This document shows, in pieces, positions 1 through 26,401 of a stretch of DNA of 28,580 bases. The position numbers and the translations under genes were made by a program. Below the pieces are notes generated by a model. That model was not told the DNA's origin and did not search any database. It worked only from the letters and a program-made list of their open reading frames with translations. Source of the stretch: Hysterium pulicare CBS 123377 (lineage: Eukaryota > Ascomycota > Dothideomycetes > Hysteriales > Hysteriaceae); the NCBI GenBank assembly GCA_000467715.1, contig AJFK01000170.1, positions 1-28,580 on the forward strand. Direction: 5' to 3'. Position 1 is the stretch's first letter; each line of letters begins with the position of its first letter.

Positions 1-140
1 GTTGGTGCATAGGTATAGTATAAGGCTCCTGGATTTAATCTTGGAGGACTGATATATTCAACGGCATTGTCCAACCGAGAGTCCCAAGGCTCATTAACAT
101 TCGTTCTATTATGTATTCTTGAAGCATGTAGGGCAAAGCC

Positions 141-2904: not shown

Positions 2905-3451
2905 CCCAATCGGTATGATCTAGAACAACGTCTTCGGTGCCACCTGAGAGTTCAGATAGTTGAGTATTTAATCAAAGTCCATTTCTTGTCTGCATTGCCA
3001 TAAACTTAGGATATCAAACGAATACATCGCCCTTTGCGACTTCACTTTGGGTCATTTTTGTGGGTGGTAAATCTCGAAGATGAAAGAAGTAACTTGCACC
3101 TCATTGGGATCCTGTAGCATTACTCCATGTAAGTTAGAAGCATATAGTATCATTTTATCCCCTTTGCATTAGCTGAAGTATGATGACTTAGCTACATTGG
3201 GGGCTGAACAACCTCTGCTACGTGAATCCCTCAAACCCTGATGTCTAATACTTCCCCTCACCATTTCGGTCTACTCCTAACTGTCCTGGGACTGGCCGAA
3301 CTTCATTCAACAGTCTCTAACAATCCGAGGCTTCCGTCCTTCTCTTTAGTAATGCCATGAGCCATGGATTCCACCAGCACAGCGACAAACCAGCCAGCCC
3401 CAACTCTCCAAGCCACTCCCACTACCCATCTGATCTGTGAAAAATGACGAT
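2905..3451. other. Intergenic stretch between convergent genes
   Basis: This is the 3' region shared by the plus-strand fragment ending at 2904 and the minus-strand gene ending at 3452. It is moderately AT-rich. I found no gene, repeat or RNA in it. Confidence 0.5.
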
Positions 3452-6400
3452 TCACCAGCAGAACCACAAAAAGCATATCAGAGGAGGTGGTGGCTTAGCT
3501 GGAGGTGCCGACAAAGTGTGAGGTGGCGGCATAGCGGGAGGTGGTGGCCAATTGGGAGGTGTTGTCGTAGCGGGACTATTACTGGTTGAAGGATCAGGTG
3601 GACATTGAGCTGAGGCCGGTTGCGTGGCATAATTGCAATCTTTAGTGACGGACCCAGAAATCGTTGAGGTAAGCAAGGGTGCGACGGTACCGCCACAGTT
3701 GCAGTAGTTGGATTTGCATAGTGCACCATCGCGGAGATCGGCAGCTATTATGTAGGCACAGTCTGGCGCGCCGCCTTGTCCAGGTACGATAACAGTTGGA
3801 ATCTCCACTGTGCTGGAAGTTGTGGTGCTGGTTGTAAGAAGAGAGTCGCTGATCGTCGATGTTGTTGTCACCCGGATGATAGTGATAGACGAGGATACGG
3901 AGGCAGGCCCACTGGACGAAACAACGGTGCTTTGAGTCATGGTGGATGATGCGACCTGCGCTATGGAAGTCGAGCTGTTCAAAGCGCATGAATCCGATCC
4001 GCAACCGCAGTCTTCCACGAGGGGGCAAGCAGTGCCATCGAGGCCAAGTTGATTTCCGGCTTGCCCAGATGAGCCAGCTTTTAGTTGGCATTGTAGTGCT
4101 TTCCACCAGATTTGAAACTTGGGAACGAGCGAGTCCGCAACCCAAAGTTGTACCGCCGCCCATTGGACTTTCTCACAGCCTTCCACGCCCGAAGCCACAA
4201 CGCGATCCCTTGGGTCATATTGCAGAAGTACTTTTCCTTCTGGAAACGTGTAAGGTGGTTCACCCCCGGTCCCAGGCGGTTTAGCTTTCGGATCTGGGCC
4301 AAATGGAATGTAATCCAACACCTTAGGAGGGTGTATGGAGTCAATTACTCCGGTCAGGCTTTTCACTATACTTTCCACTTGCGTGGGATATCTTAGATCT
4401 CCCTTAGCAGGAACATCTTCGGCATGTTTATGTCGTCTCCTAGGCGTAATAATTATGGCTTGTGGATCTGAGTCTGCATCGAGCAAGTCGCCGGGCCATG
4501 TGTAACAGGCGAGTCCGTGATTGAGTTCCGAATTAAGTTCCATTGAACAATCACCTTGCAACACATCAATTACATCCTTCTCGAATTGGGCTTTGTCGAA
4601 ATAGAAGGATTTTCCGTCTAGGCTCTTCTTTGTGAAGGATGGACCTTCCCAGAAATGGGACATCCACACCCCGCGTTGGGAGGCGACAATCACAGAAGTA
4701 CAACCATAAAGGTTAATGACGCCCATTCTGATTGTCACATCCTTAAATCGCCGGGTTATTGCTGTCGAGCTTTTTCCGTGGGGAACAAAGTTTTGCTCCC
4801 CCGATGACTCCTGATTGGCCTGCGCTGCCCTGAGCTCATTGGATAGAAGTATTGATATTGTTGTTATAATTGGAGGGATTCGGCAAAGCACGGGCGGTGA
4901 TATTGAGCGATTTCAGCGCATCAGCTGAGAGATTTCCGAAATTCAAAAGAGGTAGTGCACGTTTCTCTGCGGTTACCAAATCGTCTGGAAACGACCATAC
5001 TTCCTTGCTGGCTGGTTCGGTAGTACCGGGCTCTGTGCTGTAATAGCCTTGGCTGTCCTTAGTACAGCCTTTGCATTCCTCCATCTCACCCTGGGGTGGG
5101 TCGAAGTTGTCACTACGACATGCTTCGCATGAGTAATCGCATATGAACTTATCCATGCCGCAGCTGCCGCCTTCTTGTCCCGGACCTCCAGGATCTTCTC
5201 CAAGTTGGCCTGAGATGGAAGTTGGAGATGTGCCACAAGAAGTTGATGAGATTGACGGTGTGGTGGATATGTCTGAAATAGACTTAATACTAGTTCTAAA
5301 AGACGTGTCTGATTGACTAGATCTAGTGGAAGTGCTAGAAGTCGGTTGAGTGGTTTTCTCCCCATTTGTTACACTACTGCCAGCATTGGACTTATGGTTG
5401 CCGTCGTAAGGGTCGTCGGGGTCATCCGGATGTGCCATAGACTCCACTAAGGGCTTCATTTCTGCAAGATCCGATACAACGTCTTTGACAGCGGACTCAA
5501 TCGTTTTCTCCGCGGCGTCCGCAATGGTAGATCGTACTTTCATCGCCATACTAGCTATGCAATTGGCAGCATGAAATAGATCACCAATGAAGTGCCGTAG
5601 GCTTCTTGCATGCACTGCTCTACGTTTGTCGCTCGTTGTGCATGAAGAGGAACCCCCGCTGCCCGTTCCACCTTGAGCCGCAAAGCTAATAGCGAAGGAA
5701 ACAAATCCGTCAATCCGATTGAGGGCAGGGGTCTTTTGGGCCGGTGCGGGATTTTCGTTCCATCTATTGATAATATCAACAGCTGCCATCCATTGTGCTG
5801 AGAGCGAGAGAGCACTCTGGGATGCTTCTGTTCCGGAGGGATCAAGGGTTCTGGTCAATGGGAAAGGATCAAGCACGGTAACAGGTGTCATAACTACGCC
5901 TCCTATAAGAACCACAAAGAGTTTCGTGATGCCGTCTTCGACAGTTATTATTGTTTCCAACGCTGGGCCCAAGAAGGATTCTGCAAAGGTAGTAACGCCC
6001 GCGGCTGTACTTGTTGATGTTGAACCACTGCGAAATGATATGGTATGAGGCATGGGTACTTCTGTGGACGGCGAACCGCTTTGTGACGCTGTGATCTGAT
6101 GGGAAGATATACTCGACGAAGTTTCCATTCCTCTCGAAGCGCTCAGTGTGGTGGTTGTGACGGAAGACCCCAGTGGCGTTACGTGGATCGAAGTATGTTC
6201 AAAAGCATTTGTGGTTGGTGTTTCACTAGATATTTCCGAAAGGAACACAGACGTAAGAGCCATCGATCCGGCGGTAGATGTTTCTCCAGAGGGCTTAGTA
6301 GTCTCACTCATAGCGGCCGTAGACGAAACATCGCTGCTGGAAATTTGGGTTTGAGCAACTCCAGACGTGGGCAATTGGCTTGAGTAGGTAGGGTCAGATG

Positions 6401-7043
6401 GTTCCGAGGTTTTGATTTGAGTCGAGTTGGTCCATAACGAGGTATAGGTAAGCGAACTTTGAGAAAGACTGCCGGTTTGGGGCTGCGGACTTTCGGGAGA
6501 AATTGCAGTGCGATGCGAAACAGTGTCCGTGTAGTTCGGAGTCATTGAGAGCTTTACTACGCTAGAATCTGAAGCGACATAAGGGTAAGTGGTACTATTT
6601 TGCGGACTCTGAAATGTAGAAATTTGAATCGATGTGTGAGTCGCATTGATCGGCTGCGGATGGGAGCTCGGGAGTGACAGTGTATAGGTGTAAATCAAGG
6701 TAGTCAACCGCACAGGCACACTTGTCGTGGAACCAACAACGCCACCGGAAATGTTGCGTGAGGTCTCATGTTGGAGAGCCTGGCTAGAAAGAGAGGTCTG
6801 GTTGCCGACTTGGAATATGCTTGATGAAGGTGACGTAGTATCGTAGGATAAAGTGTTCAAGTAGTTCGACCAGTGGAAGGTTGAAGCTTGAGTAGAAGTG
6901 GAGGATGGAATTGAGGTACTATCCCAGGCAAGTAATGTGCTGTTCATTAGACCTGCACTAGTTTGATTGATGGAATACTGAGCGTGCACAATTAGAGCGA
7001 ACTGAAGCACGAGCCATGCCGCGGTGTAGAAGAGCTGACGCAT
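3452..7043 (-). CDS. Mucin-like secreted protein with a conserved C-terminal domain; frame changes near 4836-4891
   Basis: Two long minus-strand frames follow each other: 7043..4836 (735 codons) and 4891..3452. The first starts with a hydrophobic signal peptide (residues 1-21), then several hundred Ser/Thr-rich residues expected to be heavily O-glycosylated, a Cys cluster (CGMDKFICDYSCEACRSD) and a TAEKRALP Kex2-type site. The second carries a conserved block with INLYGCTSVIVASQRGVW and MSHFWEGPSF, a block I associate with fungal secreted proteins, some of them chitinase-like. A Thr/Ser stretch with paired Cys motifs and a Pro-rich C-terminus ending PPPPLICFLWFCW follow. The two frames are clearly one gene but differ by one base over 56 shared bases. 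No ordinary intron falls there. A 157-nt intron 4976..4820 (GTAACC to GCGCAG) would restore phase but would remove sequence that looks coding. It may be a lesion, a base error or an unusual intron. The function is unknown. Confidence 0.7.
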
Positions 7044-8705
7044 CGTTAATCAGAAAAGGGAGTATGTTTTTGAGCAAGTTGGTAAACTGAACACGGAATG
7101 GTTTCAAACAAGTGAATGTAGAACTTGAAGGAATGAGGGTGGCAGACATCGTCCGTCTACTTATAGACGGTCAATAGCAGCACACAAAGATCATAAGCCC
7201 TCGGGCCGTTTGACGAAAAGGGATTTATAGAAAATGGAATCAATATACTACAGGATAACACTGTCCTACGGACGCTACTCACAAAATAGTTGTTGGAACC
7301 ACTCCTTACTCAAAAATCTTCCCCTTCTCCATTCGCTCGTGCGCCTACCAAAGATGGTGCACAAGGCTATGCTGATGTTGAATACATAGTTCAACATGCG
7401 GCATACAGAGACACCAGCTGCCTCGTGAACAGTGTTCGAATCGGCTCACAAAGGGTAATGAGGTTGCATCAAAGCTATTACCAGAGCCAAGCCCCAGGCT
7501 GGGACCACAAAGGCTCATTGGGTCGAGAGTTTCCTGCTGATGCAGCAGTACTGGGTGGTTTCTGTGTAATTGAAAGACAATAGAAATGATACAGTATTGG
7601 TCGATATCGAACTTTAAACATGGACAAGCGAGCTTGATCTCTTTAGGTCTCGTCGAAAGATAAAGATGGCTCTAATAACTGCATGAGTGTCTAACGAAAC
7701 CCAACACTTACCAACTAGCATCGCAACCGTTTAATCACCAACCAATGGACACTGAAAAGGGAAGCTGCATTATTCACTCAATTGCACAAGATACTCAAGA
7801 GCGATTTTTGGCCAACTCAGAAATGTTTGCCATCGTTCTATTTATGCATCTAGATGTTACCCAAAAGTCGTATAGTTAATTATCCGTGTAGCGGGTTGCT
7901 GATAGGTGGCGGGAGGTCGGTTCCACCACCAGAGCTGTATTTGTGGTCGAGCACGTGATCGGCCCGACGTGCGTTCCCGAATGTAGGTCCCTGCCATGCA
8001 GTAATCGAATTCAAATGTACACCTATGGACTGCTGAATGAAACAACCAGAAGCCGGCCAGATAGGCCGAAGATGTCACTGCGCTCGGTTCTTGCAGCATA
8101 GATGGGTCCGTCTGGAGCCTCGGTCGCTGCATGACACGACTCATGTAAGCGGTTTCGATGCTTCGGGACGGGGTTCGAGGGTAAGTAAGTTGTCTGACAT
8201 GACGATAGACAATGGCCGAGAGAGGGGCCAGCTGTAGTGGATTATGTTGCTCGAGGAAAGGAATTTGACCGGATGACTACATGCCGTACCTAGTTGGTCG
8301 ATCGAATGCGGAAGCATACCGTCAGACAGTTAGTGAACGCTGCTGCATGCAGAGGGTGCTGTGACATGAAGGCGTAAGGGAGAACTGTTCACGAAGAGAA
8401 AGTTAATGTTGAAAGACCTATCGTTTGGAGTGAATCTAACGTCTCTGGCGATGAGTGAAAGATGTGTGATGGATGTTCGGAAAGTAACTGGGTGACGTCG
8501 CGCTTAAAGCACGACAGCCGCGACAGGCTTACGACCACCCCCGATCGCCGGTATCCGCCACCCGCCAAGACTTCCAGCTGCGGCGAGTGCGTCCAAGCTA
8601 TGATTACTCCCGTGCGAGGCTGAGTTAGGCATACGCAACGAAACAGCCAGCTGTCACCTCCATCACCAAACCTCCTATACTCACTCTCCGACCTCCCTAT
8701 GCATC
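7044..8705. other. Divergent promoter region between the mucin-like gene and VPS10
   Basis: This holds the 5' regions of two diverging genes. On the minus strand a TATAAGTA box (7158..7165) sits inside a perfect hairpin about 115 bases before the mucin-like start. On the VPS10 side a TGACGTCG half-palindrome (8492..8499) and a pyrimidine-rich leader (about 8655-8700) are visible. Open frames at 7290-7583 and 7857-8144 show no recognisable family and are probably chance. Confidence 0.5.
7153..7170. promoter_or_regulatory. Perfect hairpin CCGTCTA-CTTA-TAGACGG overlapping a TATA box
   Basis: The two 7-base arms are perfect and separated by four bases. Read on the minus strand the centre gives TATAAGTA, placed where a TATA box for the gene starting at 7043 would be. 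CGG half-sites facing each other also suit a dimeric Zn2Cys6 regulator, but that is inference. Confidence 0.4.
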
Positions 8706-15179: not shown

Positions 15180-16604
15180 ATGAGGGTCACTTTCGCCTTC
15201 GCCACTCTTTTGGCAGCATGGACCAGTTCCGTCATCGCCGCACCGTCACCGCAGGATACCGGTTTCATTTCCAAAATCCCAAGTGGTCACCAATCTGGAG
15301 GCGATGAGTACATCGTCATCTTCAACAGCTCGCATCCGGCTCCACCCCACGTCGCCGAAGTCCTCGACCGTATCCAACTCTCCACCAACCACTCAGATGT
15401 CAAATACACGTTCAACAACACCGTCTTCCGCGGTTTCGTCGCTAATATGCAAACCCACTGCATCGACGCCCTCAATGCCATGTCCGATGTCTCCCACGTT
15501 GAGCAGAAACTCTCCATCGAATCCTTCGCTACCCAACGTTCCGGTTCTCCATGGGGTCTCCAGCGCATCTCCAGCTCGCAGCCCGTCTCCGGCGATGCCA
15601 AATCCCTCGACTTCACCTACTCTTTCGACGACACTAAACTCGGCGCTGGGGTCGACATCTACGTCGTAGACACCGGCGTCCGCACGACACACGCCGTCTT
15701 TGGCGGCCGCGCGCAAGTAGGTTTCTCCTACGACACCACCAACACAGCCGATGGCGACGGCCACGGCACCCACGTCGCCGGCACCGCAGCCGGATCCGTC
15801 TTCGGCGTCGCATCAGCCGCCAACATCTTCGCCGTCAAAGTCCTCGACGACAAGGGCTCCGGCGCCACGACCGACACAATCGCCGGCATGGACTGGGTGA
15901 TCCAAAACCACAACAAACGCAAATCGCAGCCCAGCTTCGTAGGCTCCGTCATGAGCATGTCGTGGGGTCTGGGCGGGACATCGGACGCCATCGACTCGGT
16001 CATCAAATCCGCCACTGAAGCCGGCATCCACGTCTCCGTAGCGGCCGGCAACAGCGGCAAAGACGCCTGCTCCTTCTCGCCCTCGGACAACGGCGGGTCG
16101 CGGAGCGCGGCGGTCTCGGTAGGCAGTATCGGGATCGGCGACGCGATTTCAAGTTTCTCGAATACGGGGCCTTGCACGGATGTGTATGCCCCCGGTGAAA
16201 ACGTCCTTTCGGCTTGGAAGGATTCTGATACTACGATTCAGTATCTTAGCGGGACCAGCATGGCGTGTCCGCATGTTACGGGCGTCATGGCGTATATGAT
16301 GGCGCAGGACACGTCGCTGGGTCAGGATCCGGCAGCGCTGAAAGCGAAGCTTGTGAATGCGGCGCTCGAATCTCAAGTTACTGGGTCGACGACTAGTGGG
16401 GATGCGAAGAAGTTGTTGAACAACGGGGTCACGGATGGGGTTGCGAGGATCTTGAGGAGGTGGGTCAAGGAGGATATGGAGAAGAGGGAGATGGAGAAGA
16501 AAACGGTTACTGGGGCGCCTGCGAGTTGGGTCAAGGATCTCGGAAACCAGAAACTCGGCGCTAGGTGGGAGATCAGCGGCGCCGAGACGCAGCTCAGGTA
16601 TTGA
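15180..16604 (+). CDS. Secreted subtilisin-like serine protease (S8A, proteinase K type)
   Basis: A single exon encodes 474 residues: signal peptide about 1-20, an I9 inhibitor propeptide about 43-117 (starts EYIVIFNSS), then the catalytic domain. The triad is Asp164 in VVDTGV, His195 in DGHGTHVAGT and Ser360 in GTSMACPHV; the oxyanion-hole Asn is Asn291 in AAGNSG. The propeptide folds the enzyme and is then cut off. The mature protease would act outside the cell or in the vacuole. After LLNNGV, where proteinase K-like enzymes normally end, there are about 58 more residues, charged and basic (RRWVKEDMEKREMEKK) with no known domain. Third codon positions change from mostly C to mostly G/T near 16100. 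The upstream leader is pyrimidine-rich. Confidence 0.93.
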   Translation: MRVTFAFATLLAAWTSSVIAAPSPQDTGFISKIPSGHQSGGDEYIVIFNSSHPAPPHVAEVLDRIQLSTNHSDVKYTFNNTVFRGFVANMQTHCIDALNAMSDVSHVEQKLSIESFATQRSGSPWGLQRISSSQPVSGDAKSLDFTYSFDDTKLGAGVDIYVVDTGVRTTHAVFGGRAQVGFSYDTTNTADGDGHGTHVAGTAAGSVFGVASAANIFAVKVLDDKGSGATTDTIAGMDWVIQNHNKRKSQPSFVGSVMSMSWGLGGTSDAIDSVIKSATEAGIHVSVAAGNSGKDACSFSPSDNGGSRSAAVSVGSIGIGDAISSFSNTGPCTDVYAPGENVLSAWKDSDTTIQYLSGTSMACPHVTGVMAYMMAQDTSLGQDPAALKAKLVNAALESQVTGSTTSGDAKKLLNNGVTDGVARILRRWVKEDMEKREMEKKTVTGAPASWVKDLGNQKLGARWEISGAETQLRY

Positions 16605-17078
16605 GGCTTCCTTGCTCCTCGCCCTGCATGAGGCCTCAATTTTCGTTTCGTGTACCTCTTTTCCTTCTCTTTCTTTCTTCTTCTGGTATGTGTGTACGTG
16701 TTGTACGCACATCACCCTACCTTAATTTCTTGCATAACATGGCGTCGGCATTTTCATTTCCCTTCCCCCTTCTTCCTGCCCTTTGTTGAAGGCCAGATGT
16801 GGTGGTAGAAGTAATTAAAAAAAAAGGCAGTGTTGATCTTATAGAAAGATCCACGATTCTCCATAGAACAGAAAGATGCGACATCCAAAATTCAATACTG
16901 ATAATACTCCAATTCATCCCGATGAATTCTTCAATGTGCTAAGATGTTTTTTCGTGAGAGGGACCAACTTCGACACAATTCTCCAGTGCAGCGTCAGCTT
17001 ATTTCTACGCATCCTAAAATATTTTCGAGTCATGGCGCCTTCTCAGCTTGTCGGTAGACGGATTGAGGAAACATGCTT
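16605..17078. other. Subtilase 3' region
   Basis: A C/T-rich stretch directly after the stop and an A-run near 16820 may belong to the 3' UTR. A hairpin AATTCATC-CC-GATGAATT (16911..16928) has perfect 8-base arms and could lie near the transcript end. I see no gene. Confidence 0.45.
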
Positions 17079-17530
17079 TCACGTGATACTTGGTCGTAAT
17101 CGCAAAATGACCAATCCCTTACTCATCCATCGCCTTACCCTACCTCCTCATTTCCCCCCTCCCGCTCGTCTATAAAAACTCCTTCTTCTACTCTTCCAGC
17201 TTGTTTTCTATCTACGTCACACTCCACCGCGGAATCCGTGAGTGGGTTTCAACAGGCGGATGTGCTTTTCACAACGTCTTCGAAACCTTAAGCAGCTGTA
17301 GGTGTTCATGTTGTGGATTGGCTTTCTTCTTCTGTTATCGAAAGCAGTACCAGCAGTATATGTGCGGAGTTGGCTGGCTTGGGGGTATGCGAATCAGACG
17401 GTCGATGAGAAAGACAGAATATTGGTGGGTGGGTTTGGAGCAAGTACTAGATGGGGGTTATGGTGGCTGGGTGGGTTGATGGGAGATGGAGAAGGGAACG
17501 GCAATGGCGATCAGCATTATATATTTCTAC
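17079..17530 (+). repeat. Detached copy of the array unit (unit E)
   Basis: This copy lies 4 kb from the array but carries its ordered landmarks. They are CCAATCCCTTACTCATCC (17111), TATAAAA (17171), a TACGTCACACTCCACCGCGG box (17213), a GGCTTTCTTCTTCTGTTATCG stretch resembling unit B near 23418, and a tail near 17505 with GGCGATCAGCATT. A perfect TCACGTGA palindrome (17079..17086) stands just upstream. A frame open across 17201-17479 includes VTLHRGIREW and MCGVG, which match peptides encoded by unit B, but it has no ATG start. The copy may be a relic or a member of an unknown small-gene family. Confidence 0.5.
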
Positions 17531-18089
17531 TAACATCCCCCACTATATACCGAGAACCACACCGTAGCGAGAAAAGTCATAGGTACCTCAACTTCAAAAT
17601 GAAACAAAATCTTTCCACATCGAGTTTTCTCCATAGTGATGCCTGCGCCAGACACTACTGGTCTTCCTCGGCCTTCCAACTGCTACTACTACAAAAATTA
17701 CTAGCCTTGTCGTTAATGTCGCGCTTAGAACGAGAGTGCCTGATTTCACGATTCTAGAGCACACCCACTGCAGCTTCAGCGCCAGGCGTTTCGAGCTTTA
17801 AATGGTCATAATTCAACAGTATTCCAGCTTCGGCGCCTTGTAATCATACTAGCCAGTCACTGCTAACCTTGTGGCGGGAATGTAAGGACGATTCAATCGG
17901 TACCTCTCTATCTAAGCCCTGGTCATCGCCAGTCGCGACCTGCACGCTCACATAATAATTTCAATGTAATATAAGCCTCAGTGGTGAGCAAGCCAAGACT
18001 GTGGCTAGTAAGTCTGTGGCACGGCGCCCCGCCCAGATGCAGCGATAGTGTATCAGTAGTTTGAGGATCTTGCACACTCGTTGTCTGAC
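17531..18089. other. Intergenic stretch without recognisable genes
   Basis: This is mixed-composition DNA between unit E and an AT-rich patch. Open frames here are short and show no family signature. Confidence 0.4.
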
Positions 18090-18330
18090 TCCCTTATTTA
18101 ATAAGCGCAACCGCTGCGCCTTATAGCAAAATCGCTCTCCTATCGCCTAGAGATAGCCATGCAAGAGCTAAAAAGGTTGCTAAATGTTAAACGAACAGTT
18201 CGCGTTAGGTTTCGGTGCAAGTCTTAGTTATTATTAGCTTTATATATACTATAGAGTACTGTTTTGTATAGCACTACCCTATTAATTAGTACTTTTAATA
18301 GAAGCAAATTACTAATCTAGGCTAATGCAA
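18090..18330. repeat. AT-rich patch, possible decayed transposable element
   Basis: The patch is clearly richer in A and T than its surroundings, with many TA steps (for example GCTTTATATATACTATAGAG near 18238) and little coding potential. In ascomycetes such islands are often repeats altered by repeat-induced point mutation. I recognise no element family or terminal repeats, so the origin is inference. Confidence 0.3.
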
Positions 18331-18413
18331 GATAACCCCTCCTATCCATCTGCGGGTATTTTATGGTGAGGCGTGTGGCAGTGCTGATTCCCGGAATCTG
18401 ATCAAGTTAGGCT

Positions 18414-18779
18414 ATGGATAGGGAGCAGTGCCAAGACCCGCTTGGCTCTGACGCTCTTTATTCAATCAACGCGTTTCCAGCATTGAAGGCAGCTGCGACA
18501 CGGCTATCGTACAACTTCGAGTTGCAGTCCAACGTGCACCAATACTCACAATTCGGAGAGCTACCATCACCTCGCCCTCAGGCGCCGAAATCCGTCGATA
18601 CCCCCTCCGCTGACCTACGGAAAGACCTGCTCGAGCCACCAAATCCTCATCCATCACACCCGATTCATACCGAGTGCCACAGGTGGGAGATAGGAGTGCA
18701 TTGGGCAAGGCCAGTGGGAGGCAGAGCGCTGTCGCTGCAGGCATATACAAAGGTGGAAAGGCTTCGCATCTTCTGGTGA
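18414..18779 (+). pseudogene. Fragment of an unidentified protein, paralogous to 20926-21249
   Basis: An open frame of 121 codons includes FELQSNVHQYSQF, PSADLRKDLLEPPNPH and SHPIHTECHRW. The minus-strand frame at 21249..20926 encodes a matching order: LEMQSNVQRYLPSRRPSEPI, then PSADRWNDLIEPSTPS. Two independent frames with matching words show that the sequence was once coding, but I do not recognise the family. Neither copy has a convincing start region or a full domain, so both look like pieces of a duplicated gene. Confidence 0.45.
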
Positions 18780-19105
18780 TACTGTTACGTGGTCGAACGA
18801 CGAGCGGCCTCCCACATGAGCACTGCATTCTATAGGGTGTTGAAGAAGATTTCCACTAGTAGATGTCTACGGGCACCAAGTAAGGCGCGGTAGAGATGCG
18901 GTGGGAGCTATGCTTGGCTAGGTATCATGCTATCTAGGAATGCATCAATCATCGCCTTCAGCGCAAACCCTATGGTCGGAGCGGGGCGGCCGCCCTCCCT
19001 GCTAGTGCGCCACCTATAGTATGTTAAGTATTGGCAGAACTGCTAACGTACATACATTCCATTCATATTTGATTCAAATTTGTCTCCCCAAAGTGGCACC
19101 TTAAA
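18780..19105. other. Intergenic stretch
   Basis: I found nothing recognisable here. It ends at the outer copy of the 15-base direct repeat that flanks the SINE-like element. Confidence 0.4.
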
Positions 19106-19120
19106 CGACCCTTATACATG
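19106..19120 (+). repeat. 15-base target-site duplication, outer copy
   Basis: CGACCCTTATACATG occurs here and again at 19298..19312, exactly bordering the inserted segment. The second copy holds the last codons and the stop of the adjacent minus-strand gene, so this copy was created by the insertion. Confidence 0.7.
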
Positions 19121-19297
19121 TTTTGTCGTCAACGGTGACGATAGCGTGTAAACCAGAACCAAAGAAACCAAATCAACGAGAACTCAACGCAAAAAATCAA
19201 AGCAACACCGCTACATCATTCAATGAAATCAACCATAAATGAGAGCTTTAAATATAATAACCGCTTACGCGTGGTTGAGCTTAATCAAACTCTTTTT
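19121..19297 (-). mobile_element. SINE-like element, copy 1
   Basis: A 177-base segment is bordered by identical 15-base direct repeats. Read on the minus strand, its first 74 aligned bases (19291 down to 19218) match the plus strand at 26231..26304 at 71 of 74 positions. The second half is also related but more diverged, with a gap of about 16 bases. The minus-strand read ends in a short ACAAAA tail. Flanking repeats of different length at the two copies (15 and 9) fit reverse-transcription-coupled insertion rather than a cut-and-paste transposon. A TAAGCTCAACC stretch and a GGTTGATTTC stretch weakly resemble pol III A and B boxes. Confidence 0.6.
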
Positions 19298-19312
19298 CGA
19301 CCCTTATACATG
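19298..19312 (+). repeat. 15-base target-site duplication, inner copy
   Basis: This second copy of CGACCCTTATACATG overlaps the stop codon (19304..19306, minus strand) of the membrane-protein gene. Confidence 0.7.
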
Positions 19313-20340
19313 GGGCTGACCTGGGTCGTTTTTCACATTTACCGAAACCGGAATATTGTTTCGAATGTCACCTCCGTAGCTTTGATGAGATAGCAATTCA
19401 AAATGCACTGGAACAGCCGGCACCTCTGACGGAAACTGGAAACTAGCCGGCACCTCTGCCTGTGACTGGGATCCGTACAACTCGTGAGTCGGCGGGTATC
19501 TTTGCTCATACCCATTGCGTTGCACTTCTCGTTTCTGTCTTCTCCGGCGAAAAAAGAGATAAGATCCAACCAAACAGGCTCCAAGGATAACGGCCATCCC
19601 TGATCCAACCCCGATCCCAGCAGCAGCGCTACTTGACAATCCGTCGCCACCATTCTTGCTTCCCGTTGTAGGCGATGCTGACGATGTCATCGAGTCCGTC
19701 ACAGTAGAGCTTGTCGTATATGTAGACTGAATCTCGGTACTAATCGCAGAGAAACCTAATGTCGGTATTATGAAGAGTGTTGCAAGCGCCGAGGGTGCTG
19801 GAGCGTTAAATAGCTCAATCGTCGGATCGCTGCAATTCGGATTGCCATCGCTAGTCTCACCACAACAAGCCCAGAGCCCGGGGCCAGAAAGGAATGTAAC
19901 GTCTGGTGTCTCGCGGTCGGCTGTTTACCACCAGTTAGTGGTTATCGGTCCCGTTATGACATGAGGCTGGAGCACTTGCTGCATAGGTCATCTGGACAAC
20001 CTTGGCCTTCTCCCGTGCTAGTCGTACAACCCGCAATGTAGTATCCGCTCGCGAGCTGCTGGGAATGCGTGAATTTACATAGTCCATCTGAGAGACATTG
20101 GTCGCCTGGAACGCAGCACGGGACATTGGGAGTTGTGGAGTTAATATTTCCACATGGATCTCCCCAGGGTGTTGGACCAGAGTTCTTCGTTCGATAACAG
20201 GTGATGTTCATGCTTAACGGTGAAGTACTGTTTAATGGGAAGCTATAGCCTCCAAAAAGGCCACATAGGTGAGAGGAAAGTGTATTCAGTACGATCAGGC
20301 TGAAGGTGTTGAAGGGTGGGCTGCGGCTGAGCTCTGGCAT
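19304..20340 (-). CDS. Cys-rich single-pass membrane protein, at least two exons
   Basis: The first exon begins at or after 20340 with a hydrophobic leader (NTFSLIVLNTLSSHLCGLFG), then an extracellular domain with the spacing NITCYRTKNSG, DPCG, VPCCVPGDQCLSDGLC and GYYIAGCTT. The last exon (about 19919 down to 19304) continues with GPGLWACCGET and NPNCSDPT, a Ser/Thr stalk, a membrane segment GVGSGMAVILGACLVGSYLF and a basic RRRRQKR start of the cytosolic tail. This layout is common among fungal surface proteins of unknown role. The acceptor TAAACAG before 19919 is good, but no donor with consensus bases fits its phase; GTTGTC near 20022 fits the phase but would remove two Cys residues. A SINE-like element inserted directly after the stop codon. 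Confidence 0.65.
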
Positions 20341-20925
20341 ATCGACATCACGAGCATAGCCTTGCTTGGTCTGTAAGCGCCACAGAACGGAGGGTTAATT
20401 AAGATTTGAACATCGTAAAATATGGACATATTGTCACTTAATTAGCGGTATTTACAGGCAGACAATCCAGGCTCAGTGCACTTCAGTTTGTCACCGCTTG
20501 CAGGGAGTGCGGCCGAGCCGCACCGGCCGGAGGGTTGCGCTGGAGGCGACGGTTTGTAGATATGGCCAAAGAGAAGAGTGCTGTATGCAGCTCTAGTGGT
20601 GTAGAATCTTGCCAAGCATGGCCACCACCACATCTTTGCTAGTACTCCTCCCTCACAAACATGGACGATCCAAGCTCCCCATGTCCCTCAGAAGTCAAAC
20701 TGAAGCACCTCTCCATGGCCCTAGAGATTGCATTGCTCATGTAAAGACCCGTTGATTGTTTGACCGTACGACAGCTGTATCACCAAGACATGTCGAGCCT
20801 TTCCATCTTCGTATGCGCTTGCAACGACAGCGTTTTGCCAGTAACGCTCAGCTGAACCCACATGCCGAAGCGCAGGGTTCGATTTCCAGGCCCACCGCAC
20901 TCTAGTTCAACTTCTATCCTTCCCA
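20341..20925. other. Intergenic stretch upstream of the membrane-protein gene
   Basis: This is presumably the promoter of the minus-strand gene. A 27-codon frame from ATG at 20661 and a minus-strand frame at 20633-20442 show no recognisable features. A GGTTCGATTTCC stretch near 20877 looks like a tRNA B box, but no tRNA can be folded around it. Confidence 0.4.
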
Positions 20926-21249
20926 TTACATCGGATTTCCCTTCAACGAGCCGAGACTAGAGCTCGCTGCGGCTTGGTCTAGGAATCGGCGCGGTGGTGG
21001 ACTCGAGAAGCACGAGGGCGTGGAGGGCTCGATCAGGTCGTTCCATCGGTCAGCGGAGGGGACAATGGCGGATATTGGCTCTGAAGGGCGGCGCGATGGT
21101 AGGTATCGCTGTACGTTGGACTGCATCTCGAGGAGTGTGGGGGTTGCGGTGTCGAGGCCGGTTTCGACGCTGGAAGCGCGTTGGCTGACTAAACAAGCAC
21201 CGGGCCATGCCTTATCAATGCTCCAAATCCAAGTCGGATTTAATAACAA
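20926..21249 (-). pseudogene. Second fragment of the unidentified protein, opposite orientation to 18414-18779
   Basis: The frame on the minus strand contains LEMQSNVQRYLPSRRPSEPI, PSADRWNDLIEPSTPS and RFLDQAAASSSLGSLKGN. The first two blocks match the plus-strand copy at 18.4-18.8 kb. It ends at a stop right after GNPM and has no clear promoter or start. It lies just before the tandem array. Confidence 0.45.
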
Positions 21250-21279
21250 TCCGGACGCTTAGGCGACTGGCACAGCCAC

Positions 21280-21650
21280 ATATCTTGCAATAAATTACCC
21301 ACCAGGCATTTCCATCGAACTTAAATACAAACATGGCCAGAAAATCTTGTCTCCGAAAGGTCGAATCGGCAGCTTTTATGTCGTGAGTTGGGTTTCTCGC
21401 TCCAATCGTCACAAGATGTGGAGATAGAATCTTTACAGAGGCAGATCGATGTCGGGGTCATTGACTGGAAGAACAAGAAATCAATGACTGTGCTTATGGT
21501 AGGATCAGTACGCGTTCTTGGCCGACCAAGATGGTTTTGGGGATGGAAAATCTGGGGTTAGGTAAGGCTGGAGGAGAGAGGGGCCGGAAGTAGAAGCGGA
21601 AGGGGTGATGATGAGTATTATTGCGAGTTATGGTGATAATCATTAGATTT
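21280..21650 (+). repeat. Array unit A0, 5' part diverged
   Basis: The tail GGTGATGATGAGTATTATTG (21604) followed by GAGTTATGGTGAT matches the tails of units B and F. Further up, GTCTCC (21349) is followed 23 bases later by ATGTCGTGAGTTGGGTTTCT (21378), against GTCTCC, 24 bases, then ATGTCGTGGGCCGGCTTTCT in unit A (near 21994). The box and TATA region upstream are not clear. A 70-codon frame without ATG spans the centre. Confidence 0.4.
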
Positions 21651-21827
21651 CTTATAATGGTCTTCGTTCTCACGATTGAGTGTGTCAATCTTTACTTTCC
21701 TTCATCCCATGCCTGCCCGCCCTAAACACCCTTGATTTCACTTTCTGTTGTTCTAAGTCTCGTGCCGCACCATACCTATCACTGCTCCATAGCTTTCCCC
21801 ACGCGAATGTCTTGGACGGAGGGAGTA

Positions 21828-22320
21828 CTAATATCTTACTAACCCATTTCTCCCTATCTCCTCACATATATAAACACGCCTTTTCCCTCCTCGATTCTAA
21901 TTTCTCACTTCACCACGGCCCTTTCCTAGAGCAATTTTCAACAGCAACGATCGTGAACACCTATGTCTCCAAATTCCACAAGTCATTTCAACCGATGTCG
22001 TGGGCCGGCTTTCTTCTTTCAACAAAAAGCAATGTGCACGTTTTGAAACGGTGGGAAGAATAAGATATTCACACTTTGTCAATGGATGCTCTATATGGAC
22101 CTTTTGGTATTGGAGATTTAAGGCATGTGCGGAGTTTGCTGGGTCGGCTGTCCGGGCTGATGACCAGAACCTGAAAAAAGCTGATCCGATGGTTGTGGTG
22201 GTATCAGCACTAGACAGCTGAAGGTATAAATGGGAGGAGGGGGGACGTTCCGGATCTGGAGAAGAAGCTAGGTGGTGATGAGCATCAGTGTTTATTGTGT
22301 CAATGGAGTTTCTCGTATGA
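21828..22320 (+). repeat. Array unit A
   Basis: In order: CTAATATCTTACTAACCC (21828), TATATAAA (21867), CTCACTTCACCACGG (21904, five bases shorter than in other units), ATGTCTCC (21963), GGCCGGCTTTCTTC (22003), GGGGGGACGTT (about 22236) and the tail GGTGGTGATGAGCATCAG (22272). The ATG at 21963 opens only 27 codons. A second frame with GTG at 22000, ending at 22221, encodes a longer peptide; upstream of it in the same frame lies DREHLCLQ, similar to EEYERLCLQ of unit B. No single complete gene is evident. Confidence 0.5.
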
Positions 22321-22455
22321 TCCTCATTTTCACTTTTCAAACATAATAACCCTCGTCACTACGTCAACGCCATTCTTCCCACACTCTCCTCTTCTCGCGT
22401 TTCTGATTTCTCCCAACGTTCTCGTGTCGATCACTGCCCCATTGATTTTCCCATT

Positions 22456-22955
22456 TGATTACTTTACTCACCCTCGCTCCCTTCTCCCTTCCTCCTCCTT
22501 GCCTATATAATCTACCATCCTCCTTTACTTTCCCAACTCTTGCTTCACACTCCACACTTCCCTAGGAAGCGGAACCCGGGAAGGCATCACCCACCTGAGC
22601 TGCAGACGTTCAATGTCTCTTAAACCCGAGCTTACACCATGGTTATGGCTCCAGAATCCTGAAAGGGCCCTGACTGATGTCATGGACTTGTTGTGCTTCT
22701 CTTATTGTACAAGACCTCTATACACCACCGAAGTGATGCGCGGAGAGTGGTGGTTGGAGCCTTGAGTCTTGGCCAAAAAGCAGTTTGTGTGGTTTTGATG
22801 GTGGTGTTGGAACCAGTACGAATTTTTGGCCCATCGTGAGGGTAGGGGATGGGTGATCCAGGGTTATGTGAAGGTTTGGCTTCGAATAAGATGAGAAAGA
22901 GAGAAGTGATGAGAAGTAGCGTCGTGAGTTGTAGTGAAGATCATCATATACCGTA
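22456..22955 (+). repeat. Array unit F
   Basis: In order: TGATTACTTTACTCACCC (22456), TATATAA (22504), TGCTTCACACTCCACACTTC (22541), ATGTCT (22613) and a tail AAGTGATGAGAAGTAGCGTC (22906) followed by GTGAGTTGTAGTGAAGATC. The leader is C/T-rich. This unit has the longest ATG-started frame placed at the shared ATG position. Confidence 0.5.
22613..22765 (+). CDS. Small hypothetical protein of unit F (50 residues)
   Basis: The frame starts at the conserved ATGTCT position 109 bases after the unit's TATA box and runs 50 codons to TGA. The peptide starts MSLKPELTPWLWLQNPER and ends VMRGEWWLEP. It is rich in Trp and Leu, with two Cys, and has no signal peptide. The frame is too short to be sure of, and no other unit encodes a matching peptide in this frame. 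Confidence 0.25.
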   Translation: MSLKPELTPWLWLQNPERALTDVMDLLCFSYCTRPLYTTEVMRGEWWLEP

Positions 22956-23232
22956 TGATGATGTTTTGGTCGGGTATTTTGATGATCTTTCATACTGCTC
23001 CAGAGTCGATTCTCTCACTCTTGAGCCCCTAATGCTCAAAAAGCAACCTAGTCCACCGCGCATGGCACGCTACCACTTCTTGCTTTTGCACTGACACCGC
23101 ACCAAACATTACTTTCTAGACCATTCTTGTTTGTAATCCTTTCATTTCGGGATTGTGATTCCAGCTTTGCTTTCGTTGTGGAGTTTTGTCATTTCACTAA
23201 GTGGGTTGTTATATGATATTGACAGAGGGTGA

Positions 23233-23830
23233 GTAATATCTTACTCACGCTCTCTCATTTCTCGTACCCCTCGCCTATAAAAGCACTTCTCCTCTCCTCG
23301 TTCAAGCTCTTACTTCACACTCCACCACGGAAACAGCGAGTGGCTCTGGACAGCGGAAGAATACGAACGTCTATGTCTTCAGAACTGTGGAGAAGCTTTT
23401 TGTGATGAGGCTGGTGGGCTTTCTTCTCCCATCATCGAGACCAGGCACGAGTCAATGTGTGGTGTTGGCCGGCCATCGGGCTATTTACCAAAAAAGGAAT
23501 ACGATAGAAATCGGAATCAATCTCATGAACTGGAAGAGATTGATGCCTTCGGCTATGTTCTTCTCCTATCACCACAAGAACAAAGACCACTGTGTCATAC
23601 ATGGACGAAAGTCGTGGGGATGGTGAGATTTATGTGGCTCAGGAAGGTTGCGCTGGTATCAAGAAAGATGAAGGTGATATGATGGTTTTGGATCAGATTG
23701 GGAAACGAAAAAGCATTTATTGGGGGGGGGGGGACGTTGGGGGTTGGAGGAATATAAAGAAAGAAAGAGAGAGAGGATGATGAACAGCGTCTTGAGCTAT
23801 AGTGAGGATTCTTCTCGATTCTATAACAAT
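23233..23830 (+). repeat. Array unit B, best-preserved frame
   Basis: In order: GTAATATCTTACTCACGC (23233), TATAAAA (23276), CTTCACACTCCACCACGGA (23313), ATGTCTTCAGAA (23373), GGGCTTTCTTC (23417), a run of about 12 G then GACGTT (about 23724) and the tail GGATGATGAACAGCGTCTTG (23776). The frame 23281-23682 is open for 133 codons with its first ATG only at 23455. It encodes FTLHHGNSEW, EEYERLCLQNCG and GGLSSPIIETRHESMCGVG. Short matches to these peptides occur in units A, C, D, E and G. Confidence 0.5.
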
Positions 23831-23879
23831 CTTTACTTCCATAGTAAGTCTCTTTAATACTGCAGAATTAATCCCAGCT

Positions 23880-24153
23880 CCTAAGTCTAGGAAATAAACC
23901 CCGCTTACTGCACATGCTGCTTTATTGCTTCATGTTTCTGTACTAATGCTGTACCGCATATCATTTTCCACTTCCTGAGGTATGGTAACCCACACTTGGA
24001 GGCTATTGAATCTCAATCCTTTGCATGCGCTTGCGTATATATACCCTTTCTTTAAAGCAATTATATTCATAACAATCTCCTTCCGTGGTGTAATTGTGAT
24101 CTCGGCTTTATGCTAGCTACACATTTTAGCTTCTACCTAAAACCAGAGTGTTA
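23880..24153. other. Spacer between units B and C
   Basis: The spacer is also partly conserved. AATTGTGATCTCGGCTTTATGC (about 24090) resembles GGATTGTGATTCCAGCTTTGC upstream of unit B (about 23150), so the repeating unit extends some 80 bases above the first box. Confidence 0.4.
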
Positions 24154-24640
24154 CTAATATCTTACTTACCCTCTCCACTTCCCTTTCTCTCTTCCTCTTG
24201 TATAACTCCTCTATCCTCGTTTCCTTATCCGATTTTTCCTTCGCAGAATCCAAGGATAGGGCTACATGGGAAGGACATCAACAACCGACTCAAACTCTGG
24301 CAATGTCTCCACACGCCGGCAATGAGCTGGACGATGTCTCAAAAGAATTCACTGGAAGGATCTGATGTTCTTGGCTGTGTTCTTCTTCGCACGCTCCTCA
24401 ATGAATGCATTGGGTCTACATGTCATATATAACCAGAGGTTGTGACTAAGTGTTGAGGTAGAAGTGCGTGAGCTTGAAAGGCATCGAAGAGGTTTACGAT
24501 TGTCCGTTCTGGGATCACAGTTCACGAAGAAGAATCAATTATGGTGAAGAGGGGTTGTATGAAATGGAGAAAGTGGGAGGTGATGAAGAGTGTTCTCACT
24601 CCTTTTAGTAAAGATTGCCAAATGCCCTATAACATTCTTC
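24154..24640 (+). repeat. Array unit C
   Basis: In order: CTAATATCTTACTTACCC (24154), TATAACT (24201), ATGTCTCC (24303), CACTGGAAGGATCTGATG (24349, like AACTGGAAGAGATTGATG of unit B) and a tail GGAGGTGATGAAGAG (24577). The Box 3 copy is not recognisable. A frame open from about 24148 to 24432 without an early ATG encodes LHGKDINNRLKLWQCLHT, comparable with the LHHG to CLQ segment of unit B. Confidence 0.45.
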
Positions 24641-24757
24641 AACAAATATTCTGATGATTCTCTTCACTACTCCAAACTCAACGTTTGCCCTCGGATTCTT
24701 AAACATACTGTCTTCTCTCCAGCACTATTCCCAAATAATGACTAGCTTAAGGGATAA

Positions 24758-25330
24758 CTAATATCTTACTTATCTACTCTCCATTTCCCTCTTTCCGTCG
24801 TCTATAAAATCTTCATCCTCTTCTTCTGATTTCAATTCTTACTTCACACTCCACCTTGGACCCGGAGCGGTGTTAAGGAGTTTGAGCGCTCAACGCCATG
24901 TCTCCAGAAGTGGTACAACAAGACATACATGTCGCCTGCTAGTCGTGCTCCTCCCATCACTACAAGATAACGAGCGCGTGTATGTTATACATGATTGCAA
25001 AGAACGAGTCCATGCCTGGAGGTGGTGTTTGGGCCAGAACAAAGACGTTACTTTCTGCAATGCTTGTGCTGGGACTGGGAATACGTACTTGGCAATGCCT
25101 TGTGGTGGGAGAGGTAATTATAAGCATCTTCCATTATTAATGAAAAAGATCACCCCTTCTAAGCCTGGAACCGATTCTTATTGTCGTGTCTTCTTGATGC
25201 TTCAAAGTGTCTTTGATGACTCTTTATCTTTCCGAGACTGCTACCCACGTAGGTTGGAGTGAGAAATAAGAGAAATTGTGATCACAAACAGCGTTATGGG
25301 GTTAGCTTCACCGCTATGAGTATCCTTTTT
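24758..25330 (+). repeat. Array unit D
   Basis: In order: CTAATATCTTACTTATC (24758), TATAAAA (24803), ACTTCACACTCCACCTTGGA (24841), ATGTCTCCAGAAG (24898) and a weaker tail near 25276 (TGTGATCACAAACAGCGTTA). The ATG opens 14 codons. Another frame there reads VKEFERSTPCLQKW, like EEYERLCLQNCG of unit B. A third frame is open to 25262 and includes FCNACAGTGN. Confidence 0.5.
24870..25262 (+). CDS. Uncertain open frame in unit D with a CxxCxGxG motif
   Basis: The frame is open for 130 codons but has no ATG near its start (the first codon that could serve is TTG at 24870). It contains CNACAGTGN followed by PCGGRGN, which looks like half of a DnaJ-type zinc-binding module. The required second Cys pair is absent. 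It may be a chance frame or part of a spliced gene. Confidence 0.15.
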   Translation: MLRSLSAQRHVSRSGTTRHTCRLLVVLLPSLQDNERVYVIHDCKERVHAWRWCLGQNKDVTFCNACAGTGNTYLAMPCGGRGNYKHLPLLMKKITPSKPGTDSYCRVFLMLQSVFDDSLSFRDCYPRRLE

Positions 25331-25769
25331 CCGGTCTCTTATGATGATCTATTCATTATTATTTAAGACATCAACTTGGAGTCTATCCTTTCAACCTTCC
25401 CAATACAGGACACGAGGCACCCCCAGCGCACAAAGAAGCTAGTGAAGATGCTTTTTGGCACCCATTCCACCTCCGCACATCATTTTTTTTCACCCATGTT
25501 TTTGGCGTCCGGAAGCCACTCCATAGTAGTTTGGGTCTGCTGCGTTGGAACCCAATCAAGAGACTATGGTCACTTTCCTCATCGCGTTCTGATTCTAGTT
25601 TTTCAAATCACAAGAGGTACACCATGGTTTCCAGGCCTTTGTGAGGAGGAAAGAGTGGTATTGTAGGTTATAATTTCGGAGAGGGGAGCAGAGGCTTATA
25701 TCTGCTTCCGGGCGCACTACGCCTATCACGGGGGTTACGCAGCCACATAAGGAACATGTGAGTGATAGC
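25331..25769. other. Spacer between units D and G
   Basis: This is the longest gap in the array. A frame open from 25376 to 25666 (96 codons) shows no recognisable family. It may be a further decayed unit, but none of the boxes is recognisable. Confidence 0.3.
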
Positions 25770-26200
25770 TGACATAATCAACGTTTCATTATTATATATA
25801 TTCGCGACCTTTTTTTCTCGCCTTCCACTTTCGCGCTGTACCGCGGGAGCCGAGAGAGCGTATTACTTACGCACAGTTCTTGAATGCAATGTTTCCAGAA
25901 TCACAGCAACAGTACCGATGAACTCGGCTCGTCTTTCTTCCTCCGATGATTATAAAAGGTCGACAGGAACCTGCATGACATAGACGATTTGCTGTCGTGA
26001 TTATACTTGGTGTGGTTCGGCCAGTAAGGACGATACCGCGGTATTGATGGTGTTAGTGGTTTTGGAGTTCATGTCAGATTGCACCGATGGTGCAGAAAGA
26101 GGCTTAGAAAAGAGTATTGGAGGTAGAAGGGAAAGGGGGAACAATGATGACTAGCATCGTTGTTAGAGAAGGTGAAGGGTATCACGCATTCTTTCCAAGA
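25770..26200 (+). repeat. Array unit G, weakly preserved
   Basis: A TATATATA run (25793) is followed at about 96 bases by ATGTTTCCAGAATC (25889), which matches the ATGTCTCCAGAA box, and then by a tail ACAATGATGACTAGCATCG (26141). The surrounding frame includes ARLSSSDDYKRSTGTC, comparable with GGLSSPIIETRHESMC of unit B. Box 1 is not clear. Confidence 0.35.
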
Positions 26201-26221
26201 ATCTTGTTTGGGTATCAAATA

Positions 26222-26230
26222 TAGAAGAAG
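26222..26230 (+). repeat. Direct repeat TAGAAGAAG, left border of copy 2
   Basis: The same nine bases occur at 26402..26410, so the distance between them matches the size of copy 1. This is a possible target-site duplication. Confidence 0.45.
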
Positions 26231-26401
26231 AGTTTGATTAAGCTCAACCACGCGTAAGCGGTGATTATGTTTAAAGCTCTCATTCATGGTTGATTTCATT
26301 GAATAATTTATTCGCCTTTCTTTGATTTTGTGTTGACTTCTCATTGGTTCTGGTTTTGATAGAGAGTGGAAGTTGAGAATATTGATTTAGAACTCAGAAG
26401 C
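26231..26401 (+). mobile_element. SINE-like element, copy 2
   Basis: A 171-base segment starts AGTTTGATTAAGCTCAACCA and is the inverted partner of 19297..19121. It is bordered by TAGAAGAAG on both sides (26222..26230 and 26402..26410). The border repeat is short and simple in sequence, so it is weaker evidence than at copy 1. Over the first 74 bases three differences separate the copies, two of them transitions. Confidence 0.55.

Follow-up and report, generated by a model that had tools for sequence, protein, structure and literature searches.

Head-to-tail copies of an old, strongly diverged unit with a shared promoter-like start in a fungal stretch without recognisable genes

The stretch of Hysterium pulicare CBS 123377 DNA analysed here (contig AJFK01000170.1, 28,580 nt, referred to as the window) contains, in a part without recognisable genes, about eight head-to-tail copies of an old unit. 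An earlier note, made from the sequence alone, had proposed a tandem array of diverged plus-strand units (A, F, B, C and D) at positions 21280–26200, and these five units are indeed homologous, collinear and located on the plus strand, as borne out by profiles built without the unit in question, which gave E-values of 2e-11 to 7e-23 for the heads. This tandem family of diverged units fills a gap between genes, as had been suggested. The units within the proposed range are real, but the range was too narrow, as a sixth full unit (Z), overlooked previously, lies outside it. The units, with borders set by us, are as follows, where left-out E-values come from profiles lacking that unit.

Unit Z, 17105–17545, plus strand: TTACTCA at 17119, TATAAAA at 17171, leader at 17214, module 3 ATG at 17308; left-out head E 4.4e-18, tail not significant (E 1.8, full profile).
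Unit A0, 21347–21674, plus strand: no intact box or TATA, 3′ half like unit F; left-out tail E 1.9e-5.
Unit A, 21818–22340, plus strand: box 21822–21845 (TTACTAA at 21836), TATA at about 21868, leader at about 21898, module 3 ATG at 21995; left-out head E 8.2e-15, tail E 0.5, which is not significant by itself.
Unit F, 22457–22984, plus strand: TTACTCA at 22464, TATATAA at 22504, leader at 22542, module 3 ATG at 22677, tail 22883–22984; left-out head E 4e-12, tail E 1.2e-10.
Unit B, 23223–23841, plus strand: box 23224–23250 (TTACTCA at 23241), TATA at about 23277, leader at 23312, module 3 ATG at 23405, tail 23754–23841; left-out head E 7.2e-23, tail E 2.8e-7.
B′, 23521–23582, plus strand: partial second copy of module 3 within unit B; E 5e-5 to 0.71 in 6/6 left-out head runs, 0.0035 with the full profile; 81% identical to unit C over 37 nt.
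Unit C, 24144–24656, plus strand: box 24145–24171 (TTACTAA at 24151, TTACTTA at 24162), weak TATA (GTATAAC) at about 24200, module 3 ATG at 24365, tail 24559–24656; left-out head E 2e-11, tail E 1.1e-5.
Unit D, 24749–25338, plus strand: box 24749–24775 (TTACTTA at 24766), TATAAAA at 24803, leader at 24841, module 3 ATG at 24929, tail 25254–25338; left-out head E 2.7e-18, tail E 1.4, which is not significant by itself.
Unit G, 25794–26204, plus strand: TATA-like start without box, diverged module, clear tail; left-out tail E 1.2e-4.

A self-comparison with shuffled controls, of the kind suggested earlier, showed that the self-matches of the array exceed chance: 21240–26240 had 7 same-strand and 0 opposite-strand matches at E≤0.01, while each of 30 block-wise dinucleotide shuffles had none on either strand. 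With the limit set at E≤1, the numbers were 11 and 3, and no shuffle exceeded 2 and 2. Two mutually overlapping control stretches (1–5000 and 3000–7999) had no self-matches (0 and 0), and a third (16700–21699), which overlaps the start of the array, had 0 same-strand and 3 opposite-strand matches, the latter originating from a different repeat. TRF listed no ordinary tandem repeats in the array. Profiles of the unit, also suggested earlier, were used in a leave-one-out nhmmer search, in which each head or tail was searched with a profile built without that unit, and these recovered six heads (A, F, B, C, D and the extra unit Z) and 5/7 tails. The tails of A0 and G, previously listed as probable units, are significant, but their heads were found by some profiles only: a head fragment of A0 appeared at E 0.0004–0.039 in 5/6 left-out runs and was not listed with the full profile, and the full head profile, which did not include G, found the head of G at E 1.1e-8, as did one of six left-out runs at 5.4e-5, with the other five lacking it among their best non-unit matches.

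When the six complete units (Z, A, F, B, C, D) were compared pairwise, no more than one in 200 dinucleotide shuffles did as well as the real sequences in 13/15 pairs, with Z-C (48/200 shuffles as good) and A-F (31/200) not above shuffles. A0 stands out against F (0/200) and against G (3/200), and G was above shuffles with none of the other six units (26 to 89 of 200 as good). The shared landmarks do follow the same order, as previously described, although they represent a consensus and are not exact in every unit: AATATCTTACTNACC is exact in A and C, CTTCACACTCCACC in B and D, ATGTCTCC in A, C and D, GGCTTTCTTCT in A, B and Z, and GATGATGA in A0 and B.

Similarity between the units varies along their length: the spacers show none, the promoter-like part is strongly similar, the section from the leader to module 3 has good similarity, and the centre and the tail have weak and moderate similarity, respectively. 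Across all 15 pairings of the six complete units, the mean z was 0.20 before the box, 5.68 in the promoter, 3.84 from leader to module 3, 0.89 in the centre and 1.75 in the tail, with ≤1% of shuffles as good in 1/15, 10/15, 7/15, 2/15 and 3/15 pairs and summed scores (real vs shuffled) of 242 vs 234, 517 vs 274, 361 vs 234, 303 vs 268 and 262 vs 200, respectively; the shuffle counts here and in the box and pattern tests below are flattering, because the motif, the unit borders and the TATA positions were picked after inspection of the alignment. Motif sampling also returned a TGG.ATCAG-type motif in the centre (83.7 at width 18, vs at most 80.9 among 25 shuffled sets; not above shuffles at width 14), which we did not build on because it is weak and was obtained with 30 restarts for the real set versus 10 per shuffled set.

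The gradient bears on the suggestion in the earlier note that these are decaying copies, in this case of one duplicated gene, which we consider unlikely. Under this reading the landmarks would persist through chance or recency, and hardly any of the units, or none, would still work. Broken reading frames, the absence of the box from A0 and G, the partial internal duplication in B and the G+C content of the array (0.448, below the 0.484–0.590 of the other stretches measured) are consistent with such decay, but the promoter-like part is much better kept than the centre and spacer, which is unexpected under neutral decay, and the six boxes retain the kind of site known for bZIP factors of yeast. 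Simple decay is thus disfavoured because the conservation peaks at the promoter-like part, while gene conversion could be another cause of the promoter likeness. Repeat-induced point mutation was also considered and rejected, as the array has dinucleotide ratios (0.74 and 1.23) near those of the other stretches measured (0.46–0.85 and 1.02–1.22).

The sequence TTACT[A/C/T]A (TTACTHA) is present upstream of the TATA box in all six complete heads, and for this motif, defined post hoc, a location ≤60 nt upstream of TATA was found in 6/6 units, compared to at most 3/6 in 5000 shuffles. Within the window, 7/10 plus-strand TTACTHA sequences are inside unit boxes, and the ordered pattern of TTACTHA, TATA and leader occurs at five places on the plus strand, all of them units (C was missed), and at none on the minus strand, with ≤1 in 300 shuffled windows. 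Exact matches to motifs experimentally characterised for yeast Yap1 in the available text of PMC3111461 are present in 5/6 complete units (TTACTAA in A and C, TTACTCA in Z, F and B), and are the same sites as in Yap1/AP-1 response element promoters of yeasts, whereas the TTACTTA of unit D is absent from the Yap1 motif list in that text (PMC3111461). The predicted Yap response elements are positioned near a TATA box, as would be expected of Yap/AP-1 regulated promoters, and factors other than Yap1 could also read the TTACTHA site.

The earlier note also offered fast-evolving small proteins, possibly secreted, as an explanation. Worked out on the units found here, module 3 would supply the start and signal peptide and the centre the diversified mature part, with the promoter and untranslated ends conserved. 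The candidate signal-peptide parts in module 3 are MLWIGFLLLLSKAVPA in Z, MRLVGFLLPSS in B and MFLAVFFFARSS in C, and introns not seen here would join the frames. The module 3 ATG is aligned in 7/8 units and followed by a hydrophobic stretch in Z, B, A and C, and 44/91 pairwise gaps between leader and module 3 are divisible by three in six units (58/157 in eight units), with lower proportions in heads (42/139) and tails (9/38). However, no open reading frame (without introns) shared across the units was found, with the frames from the aligned ATG being 149 codons in Z, 73 in B, 26 in C, 22 in A, 19 in F and 13 in D, and stopping after 2 in A0. Only Z and B exceed 30 codons, F and D are out of register, a purine at position -3 is found in B only, and the frame of Z extends beyond its presumed tail.

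Coding was further assessed on both strands by calling a codon-specific signal from permutations which keep match positions and clustering, compared with simple column permutation. With match positions kept, the codon-substitution test on leader to module 3 in eight units had 34/200 (plus) and 5/200 (minus) permutations as good, and a meaningless complement reading had 0/200; with six units, the minus strand had 20/200. No coding signal was detected in heads (156/200 plus, 79/200 minus) or tails (153/200, 122/200) with match positions kept, nor in the centre by simple permutation (235/300, 66/300). Simple column permutation of leader to module 3 was the one test to reach significance and appeared coding-like on both strands (plus 3/300, minus 0/300). 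It was set aside solely because of the match-position test, in which the plus strand was not significant, the minus strand was borderline and the complement reading scored best. The codon-usage model is weak, as a probable minus-strand gene (19307–19924) scores -0.026, within the range of the unit frames, and the array frames 24141–24362 and 23544–23777 score like real genes (0.07–0.09). In a translated all-against-all comparison lacking a null, in-frame-looking matches among the best 45 of 68 frame pairs scoring ≥33 were found on the plus strand (F-B tail 59, A0-F 37, A-B 37) and on the minus strand (A0-B tail 61). Pfam gave nothing above cut-off for 10 plus-strand frames, and single-sequence structure models of the Z and B frames (mean pLDDT 51) carry little weight either way. 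Protein coding on either strand was set aside, as unlikely, on the permutation tests, the fate of the open reading frames, codon usage, Pfam (plus-strand frames), translated comparison and open frames running through tails.

A known system with the same anatomy is the SSSGP-1 family of the Hessian fly, a gall midge, which, in the available text of PMC2955719, forms a 15-kb cluster of seven genes, of which six are in tandem and one is inverted, with conserved promoter, UTRs, signal peptide and intron, and a diverged mature part. SSSGP-1 and the array both consist of short, mostly tandem units separated by short intergenic gaps; in both, the middle is diverged whereas promoter, leader and 3′ end are conserved (PMC2955719), and this organisation is observed here in collinear units on one strand. 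In contrast, the SSSGP-1 genes as described in that text come from an insect, share an intron and encode cDNA-backed proteins whose signal peptides hardly differ (PMC2955719), whereas the array, known from sequence alone, has no shared frame that we could find and far lower similarity throughout. The candidate signal-peptide parts are not near-identical and the open reading frames are not intact, as reading from the aligned ATG without splicing gives between 2 and 149 codons. Taken together, we think it improbable that the units are small-protein genes, and the tests above do not support shared coding.

Searches for an RNA product were likewise negative for structure. Rfam gave 0 matches at gathering score in the whole window and three matches in 16700–26400 (E up to 5), all far under gathering, in line with the failure of the earlier note to recognise a family. 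Folding was no better than for shuffled sequences (z of B -0.34, A 0.51, D 0.01, F -1.21, C 0.83, Z 1.29), and the leader to module 3 alignment of six units contained 0 consensus base pairs, hence the six units do not show the folding or covariation of a structured noncoding RNA. The tail alignment of seven units has six weak consensus pairs, two of which are changed on both sides. T-runs of four or more, which would be unexpected inside the body of a Pol III gene or SINE, are present in 5/7 bodies and lacking in C and D, and no tRNA was found in the search. The sequence GATGATGA resembles snoRNA box C, but a snoRNA-like reading was dropped, as Rfam support was absent. Of the possibilities raised earlier, noncoding RNA remains the best fit, but the RNA-structure tests do not contribute to this.

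A different type of element is very improbable, whether a repeat derived from a transposon, an element with terminal repeats or an array of promoters only that would act at the DNA level. Inverted repeats adjoin the array (18457–19005/20497–21193 and 19165–19298/26224–26356) and the box of B is a near-palindrome (23220–23257), but 8/8 units are in tandem on one strand. Head leaders of A and B (by blastn) and D (by eye) looked complementary to the tail of D, but head-tail pairing or terminal inverted repeats were rejected, as duplex energies within the eight units were no better than with shuffled tails (26 to 192 of 200 shuffles as good). No relatives were found of the Vps10 protein in a genome contig collection or of the subtilase in a viral contig collection, and the B head had no phage match, which says little because the collections consist mainly of prokaryotes and viruses. 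A 15-base pattern matched 23 viral contigs, which we take as chance.

The units look like a family of co-regulated transcripts, because they have a promoter-like start in common and similar ends, whereas their middles are different and we found no protein common to them. We tentatively propose, with somewhat less than even confidence, that they are short Pol II transcription units belonging to an old tandem family, in which the promoter and the ends would be under constraint and the body, probably noncoding, would diverge freely. A complete unit would open with a box of one or two AP-1/Yap-like sites (TTACTAA, TTACTCA or TTACTTA), followed by a pyrimidine-rich stretch, the TATA box and the CT-rich leader CTTCACACTCCACC, in which transcription would probably start. 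The unit would end about 0.33–0.52 kb further, at a purine-rich tail (GTGATGA) and a stretch of the form TATRA..ATCTTT, the latter looking like a fungal 3′-end signal. A bZIP-type activator may turn the whole array on together, with promoter and ends held by selection and the body drifting because no particular protein would be made; the product would most likely be a noncoding RNA, or else being transcribed would in itself be what counts. The sequence directly shows the homology of the units, their order and strand, the gradient of conservation, the sites in common and the lack of a common intronless reading frame, and from these features we infer the promoter function, the binding factor, the RNA start and stop positions and the noncoding product. 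It is possible, though doubtful, that these are co-regulated noncoding transcripts in which a stress-type promoter and both ends are selected and the body is not, with a function in being transcribed or in the birth of new small proteins rather than in one product.

The lack of a conserved unspliced open reading frame is consistent with an unstructured long noncoding RNA. The long noncoding RNA loci of Zymoseptoria tritici similarly lack a conserved protein, and these regions are transcribed (PMC10711317), but a tandem family with one promoter is not described in the available text, with the words 'tandem', 'paralog' and 'promoter' absent from the main text (PMC10711317). Our literature search found no description of a comparable fungal array, which is not proof of absence, as subscription literature was thinly covered. 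If the units are transcribed, they would provide a natural set of about eight paralogues with a common promoter and divergent bodies, and it would become testable whether gene-free clusters maintain transcription itself, noncoding RNAs or fast-evolving small proteins. They would also illustrate how promoter-bearing families can stay blank in annotation when no reading frame is shared.

Self-BLAST of 21240-26240 (E≤0.01) gave seven same-strand and no opposite-strand matches, and 30 block shuffles of the region gave none, showing that the tandem repeat claimed in the earlier note is real and that the array is a repeat of homologous units. Pairwise alignment of the six full units, those with complete heads (Z, A, F, B, C and D), outscored at least 199 of 200 shuffles in 13/15 pairs, with Z-C and A-F below this mark. 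Left-out profiles recovered all six heads (E 2e-11 to 7e-23) and the tails of A0, F, B, C and G (E≤1.2e-4), while the tail matches for A, D and Z lacked significance. Unit borders and motif were picked from the same data used to test them, except in these leave-one-out searches, in which the profile was blind to the unit recovered. The two incomplete units that had been thought probable, A0 and G, rest mainly on their tails, since their heads were detected by some profiles and missed by others. The analysis concerns one locus, and no relatives were found in the collections searched (mainly prokaryotes and viruses).

By its gene content, the window appears to come from a filamentous fungal chromosome. 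Unit Z (17.1 kb), overlooked previously, lies directly downstream of the subtilase among the surrounding genes:

227-1561, minus strand: Fringe-like gene (Pfam E 4.6e-7)
15180-16604: subtilase (Pfam E 1.5e-37)
26.9-28.1 kb, minus strand: FAD-binding gene in two pieces (Pfam E 5e-15 and 5.8e-7)
Also in the window: Vps10/sortilin gene (Pfam E 3.8e-256)

Minus-strand frames at 19304-20340, without a Pfam match, look as if they encode an extracellular part with cysteines, a single transmembrane segment and a short tail, a layout that we take to be like that of fungal wall-sensor-like proteins. They are flanked by a diverged inverted repeat (18457-19005/20497-21193, three pieces of 68-81%), whose outer end adjoins A0, and which therefore may have split Z from the array. 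A second inverted pair (135 nt, 86% identity) has one copy just past the 3′ end of these frames (19165-19298) and the other directly after the tail of G (26224-26356).

The shared ordered landmarks described earlier hold as consensus motifs and not as exact strings, each exact form occurring in two or three units. A unit comprises, in order:

1. box around AATATCTTACT
2. pyrimidine-rich stretch (C+T 77-97% over the 30 nt preceding TATA)
3. TATA
4. CT-rich stretch (79-82%)
5. leader CTTCACACTCCACCACGG
6. ATGTCTCCAGAA, between leader and module 3
7. module 3, ATGTCGTGG..GGCTTTCTTCT
8. diverged centre
9. purine-rich tail with GTGATGA
10. TATRA..ATCTTT, the last element, presumably resembling a fungal 3′-end signal

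Mean alignment z-scores over the 15 pairs of full units were 0.20 before the box, 5.68 from box to leader, 3.84 from leader to module 3, 0.89 in the centre and 1.75 in the tail. The units are considered old because spacer similarity is no longer detectable, and the promoter-like part appears to have been held back from divergence while the spacers lost similarity, a contrast on which the case for function mainly rests. Alternatively, the promoters could have been kept alike by gene conversion.

TTACT[A/C/T]A was present in 6/6 complete heads, 32-52 nt upstream of a TATA start chosen by the analyst, and in at most 3/6 heads in 5000 shuffles, a count that overstates the case because the motif was defined after the sites were seen. 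Independently of this count, TTACTAA (A and C) and TTACTCA (Z, F and B) are experimentally characterised Yap1 motifs according to PMC3111461, so that five full units carry a listed Yap1 motif; D has TTACTTA. Over 38 nt (23220-23257) the box of B is nearly palindromic (84%), and each strand carries a TTACTCA site.

The module-3 ATG is aligned in 7/8 units, with a purine at -3 in B only, and opens unspliced frames of 149 (Z), 73 (B), 26 (C), 22 (A), 19 (F), 13 (D) and 2 (A0) codons; in G an ATG lies a few bases off and opens a 21-codon frame. Gaps were multiples of three in 42/139 pairwise cases in heads (promoter included), 9/38 in tails, and 44/91 (six full units) or 58/157 (all eight) from leader to module 3. 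Heads, tails and centres showed no sign of coding under simple column permutation; leader to module 3 appeared coding-like on both strands (3/300 as good on plus, 0/300 on minus), but the conserved positions in that part are clustered, which this null does not take into account. With match/mismatch positions kept, the plus strand was no longer unusual (34/200), the minus strand was borderline (5/200), and the biologically meaningless complement reading was stronger than either (0/200), so that nothing coding-specific emerges, at modest power. Translated comparisons, which had no null, gave 68 frame pairs scoring at least 33, led by 61 (minus strand) and 59 (plus strand). When the frames of Z and B were modelled with AlphaFold2, mean pLDDT was 51. 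Pfam gave two matches at E≤1 for ten plus-strand unit frames (0.17 and 0.084), both far under curated cut-offs. Unit A also has a 152-codon minus-strand frame without a stop (21900-22355). At sequence level no protein common to the units was found, and introns may be present. Fast-evolving small proteins are rather unlikely, and still stand because the gall-midge SSSGP clusters, as described in PMC2955719, likewise pair conserved ends and a diverged middle, yet encode real proteins.

Folding of the six full units was no better than that of shuffles; consensus folding gave no pairs from leader to module 3 and six weak pairs in tails, and Rfam gave no matches at gathering thresholds. T-runs in five bodies make Pol III less likely for these. 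Decay of copies, which still stands because frames are broken, as are A0 and G, we likewise consider rather unlikely. The reading we tentatively prefer is that of an ancient tandem family whose members, Pol II units, share an AP-1-like promoter and have a body that is free to diverge and therefore probably noncoding.
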